Origin: Prochlorococcus sp. AG-402-K21
GTDB taxonomy: Bacteria; Cyanobacteriota; Cyanobacteriia; PCC-6307; Cyanobiaceae
DNA length: 49,600 bases
Assembly: GCA_003216775.1 (NCBI GenBank)
Contig: QCII01000011.1
Location: 1 to 49,600, forward strand
Reading direction: 5' to 3'
Shown here piece after piece: positions 3,905-17,169 of the stretch. Below the pieces are notes generated by a model. The model saw only the letters and a program-made list of their open reading frames with translations, was not told where the DNA came from and ran no database searches. Made by a program: the position numbers and the translations under genes. Positions within the stretch are counted from its first letter, which is position 1; every line of letters begins with the position of its first letter.

Positions 3905-3980
3905 TCAGTTATACCAGTAAGTCTCAGCTAATAATATATTTAACCTAAAAAGTAGAGTGCCCAAAAAGTGCCCAAAATAA

Positions 3981-4427
3981 TCAAAAGAAACATTTTTCTG
4001 AATTTTCAAATTTTTTTGACCCATCAGCTCTAAAACACATATTTTCAGCTTTTCCAGTGTAGAAATAATCTTCATCAATCATATTGAAGTATGCCCCGGC
4101 CTTACATGGAATTGATGCAGAATTTTTTTGACATTTTTCAATAGTTTTACTATAAGTTCTCTGATAACCAACAAGATCTGTTATTACTCCATTTGCAGTG
4201 CATTCATAAAATTGTTCATAAATACTTGGACCTGACGGTGTATCTGGACCGTAATTTCTAACCGTAATCATATGCCATGATGATGAATCTTTGGTACATG
4301 TTGTATTACTCTCTTTGATCACTAGAGTACTTCCATTTTTCAACTTTACCGTATATTCATTATCAAGAATAAATCCACATCCGCCTAGAAAAAATAAAAA
4401 TATTGGTGCAAGTAGTAAGCATTTCAT
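3981..4427 (-). CDS. Putative lipoprotein
   Basis: 148 aa. The N-terminus MKCLLLAPIFLFFLGGCGF has a lysine followed by a hydrophobic core and a lipobox LGGC, predicting lipidation at Cys17. The mature part has six further cysteines and no recognised domain, which suggests a disulfide-bonded envelope protein. Start ATG at 4427. It lies between the left arm of unit C (3957-3974) and the internal repeat array (4714-4753). Confidence 0.75.
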   Translation of the reverse strand: MKCLLLAPIFLFFLGGCGFILDNEYTVKLKNGSTLVIKESNTTCTKDSSSWHMITVRNYGPDTPSGPSIYEQFYECTANGVITDLVGYQRTYSKTIEKCQKNSASIPCKAGAYFNMIDEDYFYTGKAENMCFRADGSKKFENSEKCFF

Positions 4428-4944
4428 TAATTTTCTTTTTTCAGCTGTAATTTAAATTATATCTGTGATCACAATAAAATTTTAATAGACTTAACTTTTT
4501 AAAAAATACTGCAGAAACTATATTTTGTTAAGTACAAATTATTTCACAAAACTCTCCCTCTAATTGTTCTTGAGCCTTCCTAATCTTCTATAATTTCTTC
4601 ACTATATAAGAACTTTATTTAAAATTTTTTTTCAATTTCTTCTTAGGATAAAAATAAAGGGTCTAATTACTTTCAGTTTAGATCAATTTCCAATCAAAAA
4701 CTACATAGATTATGTGCCCAAAAAGTGCCCAAAAAGTGCCCAAAAAGTGCCCAAAACAAATAAAAACCAATTGACCTTACTATATTTTTCACTGAATTAA
4801 GAATTTAAGATTTGATCTTTATGCTAATTTTCGTAATTTACTTTTTAACTTTTGTAAAAAAATCTATTTATTAAATATATTTTTATAAGGAATTTATTTT
4901 GTTTTTAAATTTTGGTTATATTTTAGATAGATTTATATTTTGTT
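4428..4944. repeat. Gene-free stretch with four GTGCCCA iterons
   Basis: 517 bp without an ORF. It holds GTGCCCAAAAA units starting at 4714, 4725, 4736 and 4747. The bases that follow (about 4790-4835) resemble the bases after the left arm of unit G (about 13366-13415). This is therefore probably a left arm whose tRNA core was deleted. Confidence 0.7.
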
Positions 4945-5268
4945 ATGCCAAAAATTTATGGAGATATTGTAAAGGGAAATGAATTTATGTCCTTCGAATT
5001 TCCGAAAGAAGATTTTAAAAAATATTTTACTGATGAAGACCAATTTAAATCTGATCTCAAAAAAGGGTTGAAGTCTTTTGATCCAGAATCAGAAATTGAA
5101 GCGAAAAACATATATATTGTTGTATTGAGCGACAAAAGTTGCATGTGTTATTCGTACAATAAAGCGAATGGTCCTCACCCTGAGAGATATCAAAGCACTG
5201 ATGATATAACTGATTTCGTGCTGAATGATGTTGGGTTCAAAAAATTATCTGATGTGACAAATAATTAA
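4945..5268 (+). CDS. Hypothetical small acidic protein
   Basis: 107 aa, soluble, acidic, starting MPKIYGDIVKGNEF at ATG 4945. There is no motif I can place. It is convergent with the acidic 135-aa gene at 5377-5784. The long AT-rich leader (4760-4944) may contain its promoter. Family not recognised. Confidence 0.55.
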   Translation: MPKIYGDIVKGNEFMSFEFPKEDFKKYFTDEDQFKSDLKKGLKSFDPESEIEAKNIYIVVLSDKSCMCYSYNKANGPHPERYQSTDDITDFVLNDVGFKKLSDVTNN

Positions 5269-5376
5269 TAAAAAATTTTTAATATATTTTTTTGATTTAG
5301 CAATTAAAGAATTATGCATTAATTAATAAAATATTTGATTAGAAAATTCTTCAAAATTTTATTAAAAATTTTCAAG

Positions 5377-5784
5377 TCAACCAATTTCCTCAAGAACTTT
5401 TTGCAGTCCTTCATTAAATTCCTCGATATCTGAAGTCACTTCTAACAGTCCAAAATTTACCCAAAAAGTTTCATATCCGTCATTCAAGAGAATTTGCTTA
5501 CAAAAAGCAGAAAAACTTTTATTTAGACTTTCTAATAATTCATCAGCAAGAAAATTAGTGGCTCTTTCAATAACATCAGTATGTTCGTCAGCATCATAAT
5601 CGTAACCATCTGGTTCTTCTTCTCCCAAGACTGTCCACACTTCTCGCATGTCCGTACCAATTACATCTTCAATACCTGCCACTGCCATTGCACCGCATAG
5701 AGCTTCTTTGAAATCATTTCCTAAGTCTTCAAAAAAAGTATCGTCATCCTCTGTTATTGCATCTTCATAAATTGAATAATTCAT
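5377..5784 (-). CDS. Hypothetical acidic protein, 135 aa
   Basis: Very acidic (runs such as EDDDTFFEDLG and EEEPDGYDYDADE) and helical toward the C-terminus. No membrane segment or catalytic motif. ATG at 5784, just inside the right arm of unit C (5858-5875). The charge profile recalls DNA-mimic or adaptor proteins, but that is only a resemblance in composition. Confidence 0.6.
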   Translation of the reverse strand: MNYSIYEDAITEDDDTFFEDLGNDFKEALCGAMAVAGIEDVIGTDMREVWTVLGEEEPDGYDYDADEHTDVIERATNFLADELLESLNKSFSAFCKQILLNDGYETFWVNFGLLEVTSDIEEFNEGLQKVLEEIG

Positions 5785-5963
5785 AATAAAAATTTACTCT
5801 TTAATTTATATAACACAAATCTATTTATTGGTAATATTTTTCAAAAGAATTTATTTTGTGCCCATAAAGTGCCCATAATCCTTAAAAAAAGGAATAATAA
5901 TTCCTTACTTAAATTGGTTAAAGCATTGATACAGCAATAAGTCTCAGATATAGCCTTGTTTGT

Positions 5964-6142: not shown

Positions 6143-6607
6143 TCAACTACTTTGATTTGCTTTCTCCCTATCAATTGCATTTTTCAATCCCTGGACAATC
6201 CACCAATAAACATAAATAGGAAGTTCAAATCCCATTTCTGGATCAAACTTATCTAAAGATCTTTCTAGAGCTATAGAACATTCTTGGACTAAATCTATTA
6301 AGTCCAAGTCCACCCCTAGCTCTTTATTTCCGTAATGTAAGGTTAGGCTGTAAATTAATCCTATTAAGAAATGATCTAGGTCTATATCGGAGTCTCCTTT
6401 ATAAGAAAAATAACCTGTTTGATTCTTGTTTTTAAACTTCTCGAACGAAAGAATAGCTTTAACTAACCTTTCCGCTTCTATGTGAACTTCAATATATCGT
6501 CTTGGTTCATTGAGTTTTGCTCTTTTCTTCTCAACTGAAAGAATATTTTCTACTAATTTTTCTGATCTTTTGTTGGATTCGATTATTTCTTTTGATTCCT
6601 CTTTCAT
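6143..6607 (-). CDS. Sigma-70 region-2-only protein
   Basis: 154 aa. The C-terminal third contains DLVQECSIALERSLDKFDP and then GFELPIYVYWWIVQGLKNAI. This follows the sigma-70 region 2 pattern (DLIQEGxxGLxxAxxKFDPxxGxxFxTYAxWWIRxAI): core-polymerase binding 2.1-2.2 and the 2.3-2.4 helix that melts and reads the -10 element. The protein ends there, so regions 3 and 4 (-35 contact) are absent. In 2.4 several usual basic and threonine positions differ (IVQGL for IRQAI). It may bind core RNA polymerase as a minimal sigma or as a decoy. Its upstream sequence is shared with the helicase gene at 8533. Confidence 0.75.
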   Translation of the reverse strand: MKEESKEIIESNKRSEKLVENILSVEKKRAKLNEPRRYIEVHIEAERLVKAILSFEKFKNKNQTGYFSYKGDSDIDLDHFLIGLIYSLTLHYGNKELGVDLDLIDLVQECSIALERSLDKFDPEMGFELPIYVYWWIVQGLKNAIDREKANQSS

Positions 6608-7636: not shown

Positions 7637-8533
7637 TTAAGCAGCAAGATTTCTATATCTAGTAAATTGCGGTTCAAATAATAATTTCACTGTTCCTACA
7701 GGACCATTTCTATGTTTACAGGTAATAATTTCAGTAATACCTCTATCTTCAGTTTCTGGGTTGTAATATTCATCTCTATAAATCATGGTAATAATGTCTG
7801 AATACACCTCAAGAGGTTCAAAGTCTCGGATATCACTTAGCATTGGTCTTTTATTTCTTCTTTTCTCTACATCCTTACTAAGTTGAGAAATAACAATGAC
7901 AGGAACATTTAGTTCCTCTGCCATCCTTTTAAGACTCTTCGCTAATTTCAATAAATACTCTTCCCTATTTGATACATCTGATATAGGTAAGTAATCAAGT
8001 AGTTGGACATAATCAAGAATTACAAGTCCCAAACTCTTTTTTGTAGATTCCTCTTTAATTTTTTGGCAGATTAATTGCATCTCCTGAATGGAACTAATTG
8101 GTTTATCGTTGATATGCAAAGGTAATTTGCTCAAAGAATCAATACCCTCACTCAATAAAGACCATTCATCAAGTTCTAATCTGCCTGTTCTTAGTCGCCC
8201 AGATTCAATTCCTATTTCCATTGCCAAAAGTCGATTAGATATTTGTTCCTTACTAATTTCTAAATGGAAAAGGCAAATAGGAAGATTCTTAGTTTTAGCA
8301 ACATTCAATGCCATATTTAAAGATAATGATGTCTTGCCCATTGCAGGTCTTCCTCCAAGAACAATTAACCCCCCTCTTGGAAGTCCTTGAGTCATTGCAT
8401 CGTAATCATAAAAAGATACTGGGATACCAGAGTCACAAGTATTACCCAGAGCGCGATTTTCGATTTCTTCAAATTTGGTACTCAGTATTTCACCAATTAC
8501 TTTTGTTCGATCATTAATGCTTTCTTCATCCAT
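7637..8533 (-). CDS. DnaB C-terminal-domain helicase (lacks N-terminal domain)
   Basis: 298 aa. Walker A GRPAMGKT at 61-68, Walker B-type LVILDYVQLLD near residue 165, and a QLSKDVEKR region near 215. This is the RecA-like motor of replicative helicase DnaB. Full-length DnaB is about 450 aa; the whole N-terminal primase-interaction domain is missing and replaced by about 38 residues. It is therefore an accessory helicase of the element, not the chromosomal copy. ATG at 8533. It shares its upstream element with the sigma-like gene. A role in copying or mobilising the unit is plausible but inferred. Confidence 0.88.
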   Translation of the reverse strand: MDEESINDRTKVIGEILSTKFEEIENRALGNTCDSGIPVSFYDYDAMTQGLPRGGLIVLGGRPAMGKTSLSLNMALNVAKTKNLPICLFHLEISKEQISNRLLAMEIGIESGRLRTGRLELDEWSLLSEGIDSLSKLPLHINDKPISSIQEMQLICQKIKEESTKKSLGLVILDYVQLLDYLPISDVSNREEYLLKLAKSLKRMAEELNVPVIVISQLSKDVEKRRNKRPMLSDIRDFEPLEVYSDIITMIYRDEYYNPETEDRGITEIITCKHRNGPVGTVKLLFEPQFTRYRNLAA

Positions 8534-11732: not shown

Positions 11733-13073
11733 ATGAAAAGTTTTTTAGTTGTAATTTCATACTTTATCAATTTTGTTTTTATAAATCCAATAATTATACT
11801 TCCCGCATTATCTGCTGAGGTCAATTGTAATTCTCCTGTTTGGAAGAACAAACCAAAATGTATTAAAAAGCAAAAAAAAATTCTTGAGGCAAAAGAATGT
11901 TTACTAGTAGAAAATAACAATTTAAAAATAAAAACTTATAAAGGTACTAATCTTTTCAAATCACTTAAATGCTTACCTGTTGAAGAGAAGATAGTTTTTA
12001 TAAATAAAAAAGGTCAAAAGAAATATATTCTAATCTCTAGATATAAATCCTTATTTGGTTCGTCTTATCTAATTTTTGAAAATCAGGCCGCTTTTTTCAT
12101 GCATTTTACAATGCCACATTCAGGATACGCATTTAGATTAATTTCCTTAGATGGAGAAGAGTATGAGCTTAATCCCAAAAGTATAAGCCCTTATACAAAT
12201 AAGTATGTTTTAAATAAGAGTGTAGTAAGAGCTTTTAAAAATCTTGAAAATTCTTTTGAATTAGCATTAGATCCGGGATATATAAAATGGGCTGTGGTTA
12301 GAGAAATACCTATTATTAATGAATATTTTCTTGCAAAGAAATCAGAATGGAAGACAAGATCAGAAGCATTGCTAAATAGAGAGTTACCTAAAGTATTAAT
12401 TTCATCAGAACCTAAAGATGGCTCAAAAATATTCAAAAATTCTATTGAGAGTCTTGTAACAATTGAACTCGGTGGAGGATCCTCTGGCTCTGGCTTTTTT
12501 ATCGATGATGATTTAGTTGCTACCAATAGTCATGTAGTGAGTGGTGCTAAAAGTATTTCAGTAATCGCATATGACAAAGCTAGTTATGAAGGCGAAGTTG
12601 TTTATGATGATGAACTATACGATTTTGCATTAGTAAAAATTAATCCCAAAAATAAATATAAATCCTTACCAGTTTGCAGGAATAGTAGTTTAAAAACAGG
12701 AGACCCTGTTTATGTCTTAGGAAGTCCAGGAGCGGCAATAGTTGAGAAAGGATATTTAGAAAATTCAATAACCGGCGGTCTTGTTAGTAGTGTGAGATTT
12801 GTTGATGAACAATTATTTGTACAGACTGATGCAGCAATGAATCCAGGCAATAGTGGAGGACCATTGCTAAATAAATATGGAGCAGTTGTTGGTATATCTA
12901 CATTTATTTTGAGTGACCAAAGAATACAAGGTATTTATTTTGCAGGAGAGATTTCTAATATTCTCGCAGAGAGCGGCTTGATAAAACTCAACAACACTTC
13001 CAATGATGATTTTTGTGGTTTAGAGATAATAAAAACTAATTTCTTTGAAGATTTGTTTAATTTCAAAAATTAA
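11733..13073 (+). CDS. Secreted trypsin-like serine protease (HtrA/Deg type)
   Basis: 446 aa with an N-terminal signal sequence (MKSFLVVISYFINFVF to about ALSA-E29). The protease domain spans about 245-415 with the catalytic triad His267 (NSHVV), Asp297 (YDFALVK) and Ser374 (NPGNSGGPL); GSGFFID precedes the His strand as in Deg proteases. No PDZ domain follows. Instead about 215 residues of unrecognised, cysteine-containing sequence precede the protease. It would act in the periplasm on misfolded or foreign envelope proteins. Start ATG 11733. It is the only gene of unit F. Confidence 0.9.
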   Translation: MKSFLVVISYFINFVFINPIIILPALSAEVNCNSPVWKNKPKCIKKQKKILEAKECLLVENNNLKIKTYKGTNLFKSLKCLPVEEKIVFINKKGQKKYILISRYKSLFGSSYLIFENQAAFFMHFTMPHSGYAFRLISLDGEEYELNPKSISPYTNKYVLNKSVVRAFKNLENSFELALDPGYIKWAVVREIPIINEYFLAKKSEWKTRSEALLNRELPKVLISSEPKDGSKIFKNSIESLVTIELGGGSSGSGFFIDDDLVATNSHVVSGAKSISVIAYDKASYEGEVVYDDELYDFALVKINPKNKYKSLPVCRNSSLKTGDPVYVLGSPGAAIVEKGYLENSITGGLVSSVRFVDEQLFVQTDAAMNPGNSGGPLLNKYGAVVGISTFILSDQRIQGIYFAGEISNILAESGLIKLNNTSNDDFCGLEIIKTNFFEDLFNFKN

Positions 13074-13217: not shown

Positions 13218-13263
13218 GTGCTTTGGGAGCACTAGGTCGCAGGTTCGAATCCTGTCGCCCCGA
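13218..13263 (+). repeat. tRNA-Pro 3' fragment (att core), perfect copy
   Basis: Preceded by GTGTCCTACTAGGGTTGTTA, identical to the flank of the copy at 17212. Followed by the TCAGTTATAGCAG-type flank. Confidence 0.95.
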
Positions 13264-13427: not shown

Positions 13428-14987
13428 GTGAAAAAGGAAGAAGCAAAGTTTGAGGAATTAAAAAATAAATTTCCTCATTTAGATAAATTTGCAGAGAAAA
13501 AAAACATGCAAAAAAATCTTATTGCTTTATTGTCACCAGAGTTTTTTGAAAAATATAAGCTTCCTGATGATAGTTATTTAAAAGAGTTTGATGATCCTAA
13601 TGCACTTATCGAGAAAATATCTGATCTTTCTACATCCATATCCTTAGGAAGCCAAAAAAAGAAGTTCAAGGAAGATTTTAATACTATATATATTCCAAAA
13701 ATAGGTAATTCTAAAGTTTGTATTTCTATTCTTGACTTAAAAATTAAAGAGCAAAATTATATAAAAGTAATTATTGATCCAACAAAATCTTATGCCGAAT
13801 TTCTAGCGTCCTTTTTGAATTCAGATTTGGGATTAACTATAAGATCTAAATGCATGAAAGGCTATATCCCATTTTTAAACAAAACTTCGGTTAGCAATAT
13901 GCATGTATTAATTCCTTCATTAAAACAACAAAAAAAGATTTTAAATTTTTTATTAATCGTCAATAAAAAGAAGAATGATCTTGCTAACGTATCAAATCGA
14001 TTAGATGAACTTAAGGCAGAATTAATCTCTAAACCTAGTTCACTAGAAGAGGTTTCTAAAGAATATGCTGAGATTGCTAAAGATGTAGAACCTAGTAAAA
14101 AAATCCTTAAGAAAAGTTTCACTGAATGGATAGATACTATTCCATTCCCTTTAGCTGTAATTTTGAGGGAATACCTTTCTCTAAAAGAAGGAGATGGGCA
14201 CAAATTCAGAGTTCTTTTGAAGTTTTTTGAAGCAACTGTTGCCTTCTTCAATACTATTTATTTCGGCGCATATAGAGAAAGTAAGAAAGACTTTGAAGAA
14301 ATTAAAAATAAATTAAAAAATGACAAATTAAATTTTAAACATTTAACTTTTGGGATATGGGTACAAACCTTTGCAGTTTTTTGCAAATATACGAGAACAC
14401 TATTGAATGAGGATAGAAAGACTTGCGAAAGAATTTTTTGTGATGAAGATCTAATACTACCCACGATATTAAGTGACAAGAAACTAGTAAATATTTTTTC
14501 AGAAGCTCTTAGAATTAGAAATCAAGAGGAGGCGCATGGTTCATATATTGATCTTGAGACGGCTGAAAATATGAATAATAATCTATATGAAATGGTTGAA
14601 TCATTTAGAGAAATAATTGGAGACTTATGGACTAGAAATGAATTAGTACAGTTAGATACCTCAGAAGCCTATTCGGAGAATGAATATGTACATCATTTTT
14701 CGAGCTTAATGGGAAGTCATACCACATTCATAAAGAAATCAAAAAAAATGGAGCATGGTTTATTTAAAAACAATTTATATTTAATTAATTCAAAGCCTAC
14801 AAAACCAATAAAACTAGAAAAGTTTTTACAGATTTCTACTCCGCCTAAAAAACTCAAGAATGCATGTTACTTCTACAATAAAGTAAATAGACAGGGTAAA
14901 GTGCACTTTATTTCATATCATTATTCAAATACAATAGAGGGGAATTTTCCTGAGCAACTGTTAGCTCTCATTGATGAATTAACTTAA
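13428..14987 (+). CDS. HsdS-TRD-like / HEPN-like protein, possible orphan defence gene
   Basis: 519 aa, GTG start at 13428. Residues about 85-200 resemble the end of a type I restriction target-recognition domain: FLASFLNSDLGLTIRSK, then IPFLNKTSVSNMHVLIPS, then LKQQKKILNFL, matching the FLNSxxGxxxxxxxxGxxxPxLxxxxLxxxxIPxPxxxxQxxI pattern. The C-terminal half is helical and has RIRNQEEAHG, an R-N-x3-A-H motif (R364, H370) typical of HEPN RNase domains. No methylase, HsdR or nuclease gene is adjacent. Both assignments rest on motif reading. A defence or nucleic-acid-sensing role is inference. Confidence 0.6.
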   Translation: MKKEEAKFEELKNKFPHLDKFAEKKNMQKNLIALLSPEFFEKYKLPDDSYLKEFDDPNALIEKISDLSTSISLGSQKKKFKEDFNTIYIPKIGNSKVCISILDLKIKEQNYIKVIIDPTKSYAEFLASFLNSDLGLTIRSKCMKGYIPFLNKTSVSNMHVLIPSLKQQKKILNFLLIVNKKKNDLANVSNRLDELKAELISKPSSLEEVSKEYAEIAKDVEPSKKILKKSFTEWIDTIPFPLAVILREYLSLKEGDGHKFRVLLKFFEATVAFFNTIYFGAYRESKKDFEEIKNKLKNDKLNFKHLTFGIWVQTFAVFCKYTRTLLNEDRKTCERIFCDEDLILPTILSDKKLVNIFSEALRIRNQEEAHGSYIDLETAENMNNNLYEMVESFREIIGDLWTRNELVQLDTSEAYSENEYVHHFSSLMGSHTTFIKKSKKMEHGLFKNNLYLINSKPTKPIKLEKFLQISTPPKKLKNACYFYNKVNRQGKVHFISYHYSNTIEGNFPEQLLALIDELT

Positions 14988-16030: not shown

Positions 16031-16134
16031 AAATAAATACTTTTTAAAATAATCATTAAATAAATATTGGCCAGCAAACAAACAATTGCAGAACCCCATA
16101 TTTGGGTTTATTAATTAGAAAACATTTTGAATTA

Positions 16135-17169
16135 ATGGAATTATTTATATTTTTAGCAAGTCCAATATTTGCAACATTAAGCAGTCTTTCAATTATTTAC
16201 TCCATACGTTTTCTTGATGCAATTGAAAGGGAGCCACTAAAACCAATTATCGCAGCATTTGCTTGGGGTATTGCTTCAGCCATAGCAATATTAATTTTTC
16301 CTTTTTCGATAGGGAATTATATTATTAATACTTTAGATCTCGACCCGAATTTAAGTGAAGTTTTTGGGACAATTATTGACGCTCCAATAAAAGAAGAAAT
16401 TTATAAATTTGTAGGATTGTTTTTTGTTTTTAAAACTTTCAAGAAAGAATTTCATTCATTAACAGATTTCGTTGTTTATAGCTGTCTAGTTGCAGCAGGT
16501 TTTCAATTTATTGAGAATATTATTTATTTATGGGGAACATTAGGCTATGAGAATGACATTACTTATTATTGGAATATGGAGCTAACTGGAAGAGTTATTA
16601 AAAGTGGTTATATGCATGTACTTTTCACTGCTTGGTCTGGCGTTGGATTATGGTTCTACAAAAAATCAACCAAAATCAAACTTAATTTTCTCTTTTTTGT
16701 TTTAATCGCTATTGGATTACATTTTTTCAATAATCTTTCAAGTGTATTCTCTTCCTTCGAATCTTCAAATAGTATTGCAGCTATTAATTATTTAGGAAAT
16801 ATTTTATATGCAATAACTAGAGCTTTATCCATTGCTATATTCATAATTTTAATTGGTTTCTCAGTCATAAGAGATATAAATTATTTAAATTTTTTTATAT
16901 TTGAAATTCATGATCAGAATTTATTAGAAAAACCTCAATTACAAACTTTGAAGGAACTTTCTAATCCTATTTATCATCTCCTAGCAAGATATAAATGGAG
17001 CTGGAGACTTTTTAAGCTTCATAAAACCTCTCCAGTTAGAAGAGATATATTTAATTCTTTTTCAAAATATGCTTTGTCCTATTCAGATGAATATATCAAC
17101 TACGAAAAAAAAGAAAGAAAAATAATCCTATCTAATGCAATTAATTTAATATCTAATGTCTCTTCATAA
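16135..17169 (+). CDS. PrsW-family intramembrane protease
   Basis: 344 aa from ATG 16135 (MELFIFLASP); a TTG at 16102 would add 11 residues. It has eight or so hydrophobic spans. Family motifs are visible: the di-glutamate PIKEEIYK (E87, E88), GFQFIENIIY (E128, N129) and MHVLFTAW (H162), the metal/catalytic residues of PrsW/CPBP-like glutamic proteases. PrsW in Bacillus clips the anti-sigma factor RsiW; the substrate here is unknown. A cytosolic tail of about 90 residues follows the last span. The gene ends about 20 bp before conserved core-flank sequence, suggesting a deletion junction. Confidence 0.85.
   Translation: MELFIFLASPIFATLSSLSIIYSIRFLDAIEREPLKPIIAAFAWGIASAIAILIFPFSIGNYIINTLDLDPNLSEVFGTIIDAPIKEEIYKFVGLFFVFKTFKKEFHSLTDFVVYSCLVAAGFQFIENIIYLWGTLGYENDITYYWNMELTGRVIKSGYMHVLFTAWSGVGLWFYKKSTKIKLNFLFFVLIAIGLHFFNNLSSVFSSFESSNSIAAINYLGNILYAITRALSIAIFIILIGFSVIRDINYLNFFIFEIHDQNLLEKPQLQTLKELSNPIYHLLARYKWSWRLFKLHKTSPVRRDIFNSFSKYALSYSDEYINYEKKERKIILSNAINLISNVSS

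Follow-up and report, generated by a model that had tools for sequence, protein, structure and literature searches.

A gene in the window, which is the whole stretch of 49,600 nucleotides from Prochlorococcus sp. AG-402-K21 that was analysed, was found to encode a single HsdS-like target-recognition domain (TRD), two long helices, a helical bundle with a conserved RN-H motif and a terminal beta-barrel. With moderate confidence, the gene is read as a stand-alone HEPN RNase of the abortive-infection type that would be held by an HsdS-derived sensor; the defence role, RNase activity, dimerisation, order of descent and trigger are parts of this reading that we infer. The window protein shared the HEPN and barrel cassette, its invariant residues included, with a broad family, which had been missed in the preliminary description of this DNA. 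The usual form of the family has an eroded methylase-like domain and is often located near type I restriction–modification (R-M) genes; compared with this form, the window protein is reduced.

Gene Coordinates and Domain Layout

The frame began at a GTG codon at position 13428, ended with a stop codon at 14987 and contained no internal stops. The open reading frame of 519 aa and the motif RIRNQEEAHG of the preliminary description were both recovered as described, and the residues of the motif were numbered R364, N365 and H370. The source genome (1.64 Mb, 20 contigs, 99.8% complete) contained only one place that matched the whole window protein. An AlphaFold2 model, for which the window protein was aligned with 37 relatives, had a mean pLDDT of 87.8 and a pTM of 0.60. 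The layout of the domains is given in Table 1. According to the Pfam scan and the alignment with its kin, the window protein had no methylase-like N-terminal domain; residues 20–61 aligned weakly, with a mean identity of 14%, to the linker between the methylase and the TRD of the full-length kin. The best Pfam match was PI3K_P85_iSH2 (E 0.0077, below the cut-off), which fell on the long-helix spacer and was discarded. Promoter-like sites near the gene were no commoner than in shuffled sequences, and the Rfam scan gave no match.

Table 1. Positions of the features discussed in the text (window coordinates unless a locus is named).
Feature	Position	Strand	Basis or remark
TRD–long-helix spacer–HEPN–beta-barrel gene, 519 aa	13428..14987	+	intact frame
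N-terminal helices, residues 1–59, occupying the place of the methylase	13428..13604	+	weak alignment to linker of kin
Reduced HsdS-like target-recognition domain, residues 60–162	13605..13913	+	PADLOC profile and VIA
Two long helices, residues 165–227, at the position of the HsdS spacer helices	13920..14108	+	AlphaFold2 model, VIA
HEPN-like helical bundle, residues 231–403	14118..14636	+	AlphaFold2 model, VIA to Csm6
R364-N365-x4-H370, predicted RNase active-site motif	14517..14537	+	end of helix 351–369
Conserved beta domain, residues 404–519, partly OB-like (403–463)	14637..14984	+	AlphaFold2 model, VIA
tRNA-Pro 3'-end copy, left border of cargo segment	13218..13263	+	exact copy, chance expectation 0
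tRNA-Pro 3'-end copy, right border of cargo segment	17212..17257	+	copy in array
HsdR–HEPN fusion	L066:6776-10912, partly L009:1420-3810		T1RH-like_C E 7.1e-117
Response-regulator fusion, 459 aa	L082:1438-2817	-	next to histidine-kinase-like gene

HsdS-Like Half of the Protein

The half that had been called type I specificity-like was borne out as an HsdS/TRD fold by both profiles and structure. The PADLOC models of type I specificity (Specificity_I) matched residues 71–174 with a best E of 1.6e-9, and the profile and the AlphaFold2 model together placed the HsdS-like span at about residues 57–202. In the VIA alignments, model residues from about 45 to 206 were fitted to R-M structures. The top score for the TRD part was obtained with Esub1 (8vsq, Z 12.6), followed by chain C of the PacII M1M2S complex (7vru_C, Z 12.1), the S subunit 1yf2 (Z 10.9) and HsdS 3okg (Z 10.1). 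Across the structures whose titles name a type I or IIB R-M complex or an S subunit, Z ranged from 12.1 to 9.3, and the alignments to S subunits extended to residues 190–229. Foldseek alone ranked the R-M chains weakly (best E 1.6e-4). The window protein shares the TRD fold and the spacer helices with the HsdS of type I R-M systems; it differs in that it has a single shortened TRD fused to HEPN and in that its genome gave no match to HsdS or HSDR_N.

The claim that this half is a sequence-recognising module was not supported. The PacII match covered 190 residues of the chain and 146 residues of the model, and hence the window TRD falls about 45 residues short of its PacII counterpart. No second TRD was found in the window protein, whose single TRD is followed in the model by two long helices and then by the helical bundle. 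TRDs that read different DNA sites diverge faster than their scaffolds. Such rapid divergence was not seen in the family, where the mean pairwise identity of the TRD (29%) lay above that of the linker (24%) and spacer (26%) and below that of the barrel (33%) and HEPN (36%); the TRD was no more variable across phyla than the neighbouring segments. Among 12 HsdS neighbours, a match between the TRD and the HsdS of its own locus was obtained only for L049 (E 0.010, the sole hit) and L062 (E 0.004, in the second row), and a TRD that mirrors the specificity of the HsdS in its own operon was not supported. Because the TRD is short, shows no excess variability and rarely matches the HsdS of its own locus, it is not called sequence-recognising here. 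It appears as likely that this TRD would sense a partner or proteins that mimic DNA as that it would read a sequence.

HEPN-Like Half and Terminal Barrel

The half described as HEPN-like was upheld in its conserved RN-H signature within a helical bundle, and not in its sequence profile, since residues 231–403 matched no HEPN entry among the models of Pfam, PADLOC and NCBIfam or among the PDB sequences. R364, N365 and H370 were three of only nine invariant columns in the 38-row alignment A4, which includes the window protein, and the motif was also invariant in alignment A6. Moreover, RN-x3-4-H was present in all 42 of the cassette loci. HEPN domains are defined in the consulted part of PMC3710099 by Rx4-6H with a polar residue after the arginine, located where helix 3 ends before helix 4. 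The window motif, Rx5H with an asparagine after the arginine, agreed with this definition in both its form and its placement: in the model, R364 and N365 lay at the end of helix 351–369, H370 in the following loop, and the next helix spanned residues 376–397. HEPN domains also typically have an acidic residue in the N-terminal helices, in the form Ex3[KR] (PMC3710099, same part). E268, in helix 259–283, was invariant in A4, had no lysine or arginine at +4, and was replaced by aspartate in L013.

The best structural match for the HEPN stretch was EiCsm6 (6tug), for which VIA aligned model residues 233–402 with chain residues 235–412 (Z 7.2, rmsd 4.3, 135 residues aligned), a score below the VIA caution level for helical bundles. 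Designed GPCR-like folds scored 6.0 and 5.8 on the same stretch, and ModE scored 7.0 over another range. The catalytic residues of EiCsm6 are R372, N373 and H377 according to the passages seen of PMC7101355, and they lay in about the same register as the window motif when only the end points of the VIA ranges were compared. Structure prediction and search, as proposed in the preliminary description, recovered the TRD fold at Z 12.1, and for the helical bundle Csm6 at Z 7.2 was the best match. The invariant motif, its placement and the Csm6 match, the last of which is only suggestive alone, point to residues 231–403 as a HEPN domain. For residues 403–463, OB folds were matched with Z of 6.0–6.4 and rmsd of 1.6–1.7, also below the caution level of VIA; the matches included a telomere-end-binding protein and human SSB, and the OB-like character of this part of the model is only suggestive.

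Distribution of the Family

The relatives were sought with two cassette patterns over 84,980 species genomes, a scan that is not exhaustive, and 42 cassette loci were found across many phyla of bacteria and archaea. Two pairs of these loci (L048/L053 and L049/L050) are near-copies and not independent, and most of the loci are MAG contigs, for which the organism of any single contig is unsure. When the window protein was the only query, direct pattern scans gave no relatives in the genomes or viral contigs, and sequence searches of the PDB returned nothing; searches of whole genomes did yield relatives. In the mobile collections, four plasmid records, one viral contig and no phage records were obtained: tblastn against plasmids gave the four records (best E 2e-22; C-terminal halves of Gordonia and Streptomyces 'N-6 DNA methylases'), tblastn against phages gave no relative, and the scan of viral contigs for the conserved patterns gave one locus (L073).

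Within the genus, 7 of 266 genomes matched the cassette profile, namely six intact copies and a short fragment with stops in G608. In the sample of the phylum, 6 of 386 genomes matched, and five were left after a frame that we take to be UvrB (G493, E 2.4e-4) was dropped as a false positive, which is a warning on matches near 1e-4. All five, the window included, are rows of the profile's own alignment, and they were also found by a four-row profile or by the window protein alone. The small matches G010, G117, G477 and G214 extended over the TRD-like part or the TRD and spacer only and were excluded from the cassette members. None of the NCBIfam matches shown for seven members, and none of the Pfam matches shown for the members scanned, covered the cassette above the cut-off, and among the PADLOC matches listed for seven members, none covered it below E 0.001. 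The matches that did fall within the cassette were not kept: Csm2 in L002 (E 0.008 and 0.027) and cas_RFas in L012 (E 0.0032) were too weak, and Sec3_CC (E 0.0018) and DUF3151 (E 0.004) in L008 were below the cut-off.

In a quick tree, the window protein grouped with L030 (SH-aLRT 92) inside a set of 11 rows (97). The closest cassette relative was L002, which was 58% identical over 297 codons and was its sister in the quick tree (SH-aLRT 100). The differences between the two cassettes at the three codon positions were 0.33, 0.22 and 0.51 over these 297 codons, a pattern that fits what selection on the protein level gives, in a pair that is too distant for dN/dS.

Eroded Methylase Motif and Varied N-Terminal Parts

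The usual order of domains in the family was methylase-like domain, short TRD, HEPN and barrel, in a protein that commonly has 740–1010 aa. When a full-length relative (L031) was modelled (pLDDT 89.5), its N-terminal part had an HsdM fold with Z 23.7 to 3lkd. The motif [DNS]PP[FYW] was kept in only 2 of 35 cassette proteins (L030 and L064) when the N-terminal parts were scanned; L034, L039, L040, L058, L066, L069 and L071, which are HsdR-fused, truncated or frameshifted, are left out of this count. On the alignment, the motif was present in 2 of 37 rows, with the HsdR fusion L066 among the 35 that failed. Motif I was less eroded than motif IV and passed a loose pattern in 15 of 35 proteins, and the neighbouring HsdM genes kept motif IV in 15 of 19 cases. 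Judged from these sequences, the catalytic motif of the methylase appears mostly lost while the HEPN motif is kept, and the methylase-like domains of the family look dead.

The part ahead of the cassette was of several kinds. L002 encoded a 507-aa protein with two T2SSF domains before the cassette (E 3.9e-23), and no other T2SSF match was found in its genome. The fusion of two T2SSF domains to a HEPN cassette was recorded at L021:9771-11294 (-), in a genome of the same genus with no other T2SSF match. At a single Sericytochromatia locus that has two handles (L009 and L066), HsdR and the cassette were joined in one polypeptide of 1378 aa, with hsdM and hsdS upstream of the fusion. The N-terminus of the 468-aa protein of L081 had no Pfam match at the cut-off, and its cassette was matched with E 6.6e-25 by a profile built without it. 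L082 was first found at a cassette E of 6.9e-4, and its response-regulator domain had an E of 2.1e-5, below the Pfam cut-off. With a profile built without L082, the E was 6.2e-6 for the whole protein and 0.0039 for the best stretch, compared with 0.046 for the UvrB frame of G493. The matching stretches excluded the RN-H motif, which lined up only in the MAFFT alignment, and L082 is likely a distant relative of the cassette family.

The cassette is interpreted as an effector that would be fitted with different sensors in different relatives. A wider reading is put forward tentatively and remains short of probable: a previously undescribed cassette of PFP-HEPN and an OB-like barrel in bacteria and archaea may be wired to exchangeable sensors, which would be an eroded methylase–TRD in most members and a bare TRD, paired T2SSF domains, HsdR or a response regulator in others, and its main form may be an R-M modification unit turned into an RNase trip-wire.

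Two further genes were observed beside cassette genes. In three Prochlorococcus islands (L068:6835-7881, L067:6844-7890 and L030:10933-11979), a 348-aa protein was encoded within 20 bp of the methylase–HEPN gene; the L068 copy matched T5orf172/MUG113, and the L067 and L030 copies were alike by eye. A 985-aa protein at L030:4740-7697, with weak AAA_16/NB-ARC matches below the cut-off, adjoined the cassette gene and is possibly a STAND-type defence protein.

Restriction Genes Near the Relatives and Search of the Source Genome

According to phmmer searches, genes for HsdM, HsdS or HsdR flanked 22 of the 42 loci, with HsdR in 19. Eight of the ten Hsd queries were taken from five of these loci and labelled by eye. 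When matches between a query and the locus it was taken from were dropped, the counts were still 22 of 42, with HsdR in 18, and the two annotated Gordonia queries alone found Hsd flanks at 17 of 42. Pfam confirmed ten Hsd neighbours from L032, L033, L035, L046, L062 and L066; the R gene of L032 is of the EcoEI type and shows no HSDR_N. In nine loci, an Hsd gene was located on the same strand less than 100 bp away, and the cassette gene of L032 stood between hsdS and hsdR in the order hsdM-hsdS-cassette gene-hsdR. No Hsd neighbour was found in the flanks of the other 20 loci, some of which are on short contigs. Of 146 cyanobacterial genomes, 102 contained PF04313, with 1–12 matches each, and the chance of an Hsd hit in about 20 kb should be of the order of one per cent, which is a rough estimate from these counts and not a computed control.

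The source genome contained no match to PF01420 (HsdS) or PF04313 (HSDR_N). A single weak match to PF02384 (E 4.3e-5) lay in a protein that we take to be an RlmL-like rRNA methylase. The statement that no methylase or nuclease gene is near was thus extended to the whole genome for these three families, apart from the one weak match. Likewise, the protein had been described as without partners, and no Hsd partner was matched in the source genome; as far as tested, the window gene stands alone.

tRNA-Pro Array Around the Gene

Eleven same-strand (+) copies of the tRNA-Pro 3' end were located in the window between 1708 and 34607, which is the total for the genome at up to 3 mismatches, and three complete tRNA-Pro genes were called at 1680, 3834 and 17819. 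The frame of the window gene opened about 165 bp after a copy of the 3' end. With regard to the suggestion of a mobile unit, the gene lies between two members of this 11-copy array (Table 1), in a segment that also holds small ORFs and a gene for a PrsW-type protease. In the consulted part of PMC10872708, serial integration at tRNA genes is described for the tycheposons of Prochlorococcus, with a tyrosine recombinase as a feature. Judged by its sequence, the array resembles such serial integration, and the segment of the window gene is bordered by tRNA ends, which is a trait of tycheposon cargo.

Other features of the array were recorded. A partial copy of the 3' end of tRNA-Pro(TGG) was present at about 11493. 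A Trypsin_2-type protease with an N-terminus that is signal-like by eye was encoded at 11733–13073, upstream of the copy at 13218, and the PrsW-type intramembrane protease in the segment of the HEPN gene was encoded at 16102–17169. On the reverse strand, the array contained a sigma-70 region 2 protein at 6143–6607 and a 298-aa protein at 7637–8533, whose residues 36–295 matched the C-terminal helicase domain of DnaB. Repeats of the unit AGTGCCCAAAA (family D7) were found at 3956–5887, near tRNA-Pro copies.

Proposed Mechanism and Alternative Explanations

In the favoured reading, the HEPN domain would dimerise, as do other HEPN RNases, and cleave the RNA of the cell, which would halt the growth of the phage. 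The HsdS-derived TRD and the long helices would keep the HEPN domain off and release it on a cue of infection; candidate cues include the ends of phage DNA, an anti-restriction protein that mimics DNA, and the absence of a partner. The family probably arose within type I R-M operons, where it would have served as a guard subunit with a methylase-like domain, a TRD, HEPN and a barrel; the Prochlorococcus version would have dropped the methylase part and would travel alone in the tRNA-Pro array. Several observations count against this reading. The cassette is rare in the genus and has few records in the mobile collections, the cargo array holds unrelated genes and no recognised defence island, the Csm6 score of 7.2 is below the caution level with no HEPN sequence profile, and no Hsd neighbour was found at 20 of the 42 loci.

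The association of the relatives with hsdM, hsdS and hsdR, with one member fused to HsdR, could also mean that the protein contributes the HEPN subunit to a device of several proteins, in which the partner would be encoded elsewhere in the genome or be brought by an incoming type I R-M system, so that the protein would be a sensor of restriction only. This arrangement would parallel the PrrC model, in which a type I system is coupled with a HEPN RNase (PMC3710099 and PMC3506569, in the parts consulted). It is considered unlikely, since a genome that is 99.8% complete contained no HsdS or HSDR_N match and nearly half of the relatives (20 of 42) showed no Hsd gene in their flanks. Less likely again, the gene might be a 5'-truncated and now functionless remnant of a methylase–TRD–HEPN gene that was cut at the tRNA-Pro integration site. 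No part of the methylase is left, and the start of the frame is only about 165 bp past a 3'-end copy; furthermore, a decayed cassette fragment with stops occurs in G608 of the same genus, and the methylase is split into two frames in L008 (the same locus as L069). Against decay, the frame of 519 aa has no stops, the window protein is included in the nine invariant columns of A4, and the codon-position pattern fits selection. The closest relative, L002, is also without a methylase and has the two T2SSF domains instead; because this relative has another N-terminus, the loss of the methylase need not mean the death of the gene.

The least probable of the three alternatives would make the HEPN domain a module for RNA processing or RNA binding outside defence, for example in the regulation of stress in the host or the mobile element. 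According to the part of PMC3710099 that was consulted, certain HEPN domains, such as that of the regulator MtlR, bind RNA without catalysis, and the response-regulator fusion of L082, a distant likely relative, is encoded next to a histidine-kinase-like gene. However, the catalytic triad is invariant in the family, whereas non-catalytic HEPN domains lose it (PMC3710099, same part), and both the association of the family with restriction genes and its patchy distribution in the genus speak against such a module.

Relation to Known Systems

The comparisons with published systems rest on the consulted portions of the papers. Like Csm6/Csx1, the window protein has R-N-x3-4-H at about the same place in a helical bundle (EiCsm6, PMC7101355), but Csm6/Csx1 has a CARF domain, for which the window protein gave no Pfam match. 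The signature of a HEPN RNase is shared with PrrC/RloC, known HEPN RNases that guard restriction (PMC3710099), and relatives in the family are coded beside hsdMSR; PrrC/RloC differs in its N-terminal ABC NTPase, for which the window protein has no Pfam match, and the control domain here is derived from HsdS/HsdM. In a system related to type 1 BREX with a HEPN–DUF499 fusion (PMC12839542), HEPN is likewise built into an R-M-like system; there it sits on an ATPase, whereas here it sits on a methylase-like domain and TRD or on a TRD alone. DndH, an inactive methylase–TRD–REase (PMC10853773), combines a methylase fold with eroded motifs, a TRD and a nuclease, as in the family, but it is another protein and its nuclease is a DNase. 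Weak profile matches linked MAD2 and MAD5 of MADS to the methylase-like domain and the TRD of the family; the window protein scored 20.8 bits against an NCBIfam cut-off of 400, and the matches were outside the HEPN cassette.

According to the portion consulted of a 2013 survey (PMC3710099), HEPN domains linked to R-M systems are fused to nucleases, helicases and other ATPases, and not to methylases. If the HEPN call is right, the methylase–TRD–HEPN proteins are a counter-example to this statement. No description of a methylase–TRD–HEPN family was found in searches of open-licence papers, and the portions consulted of PMC3710099, PMC12839542, PMC10853773 and PMC3506569 did not describe the family.

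In bacterial defence against viruses, the family has the appearance of a trip-wire that has not been described before. If this is true, modification enzymes would have been reused as sensors of infection, with about half of the members found located near type I R-M genes. The window gene, with its 519 aa, would offer a small single-gene system for the question of what is sensed by a TRD that has no target for methylation or cleavage, and the family makes it testable how several unrelated sensors drive one RNase cassette.
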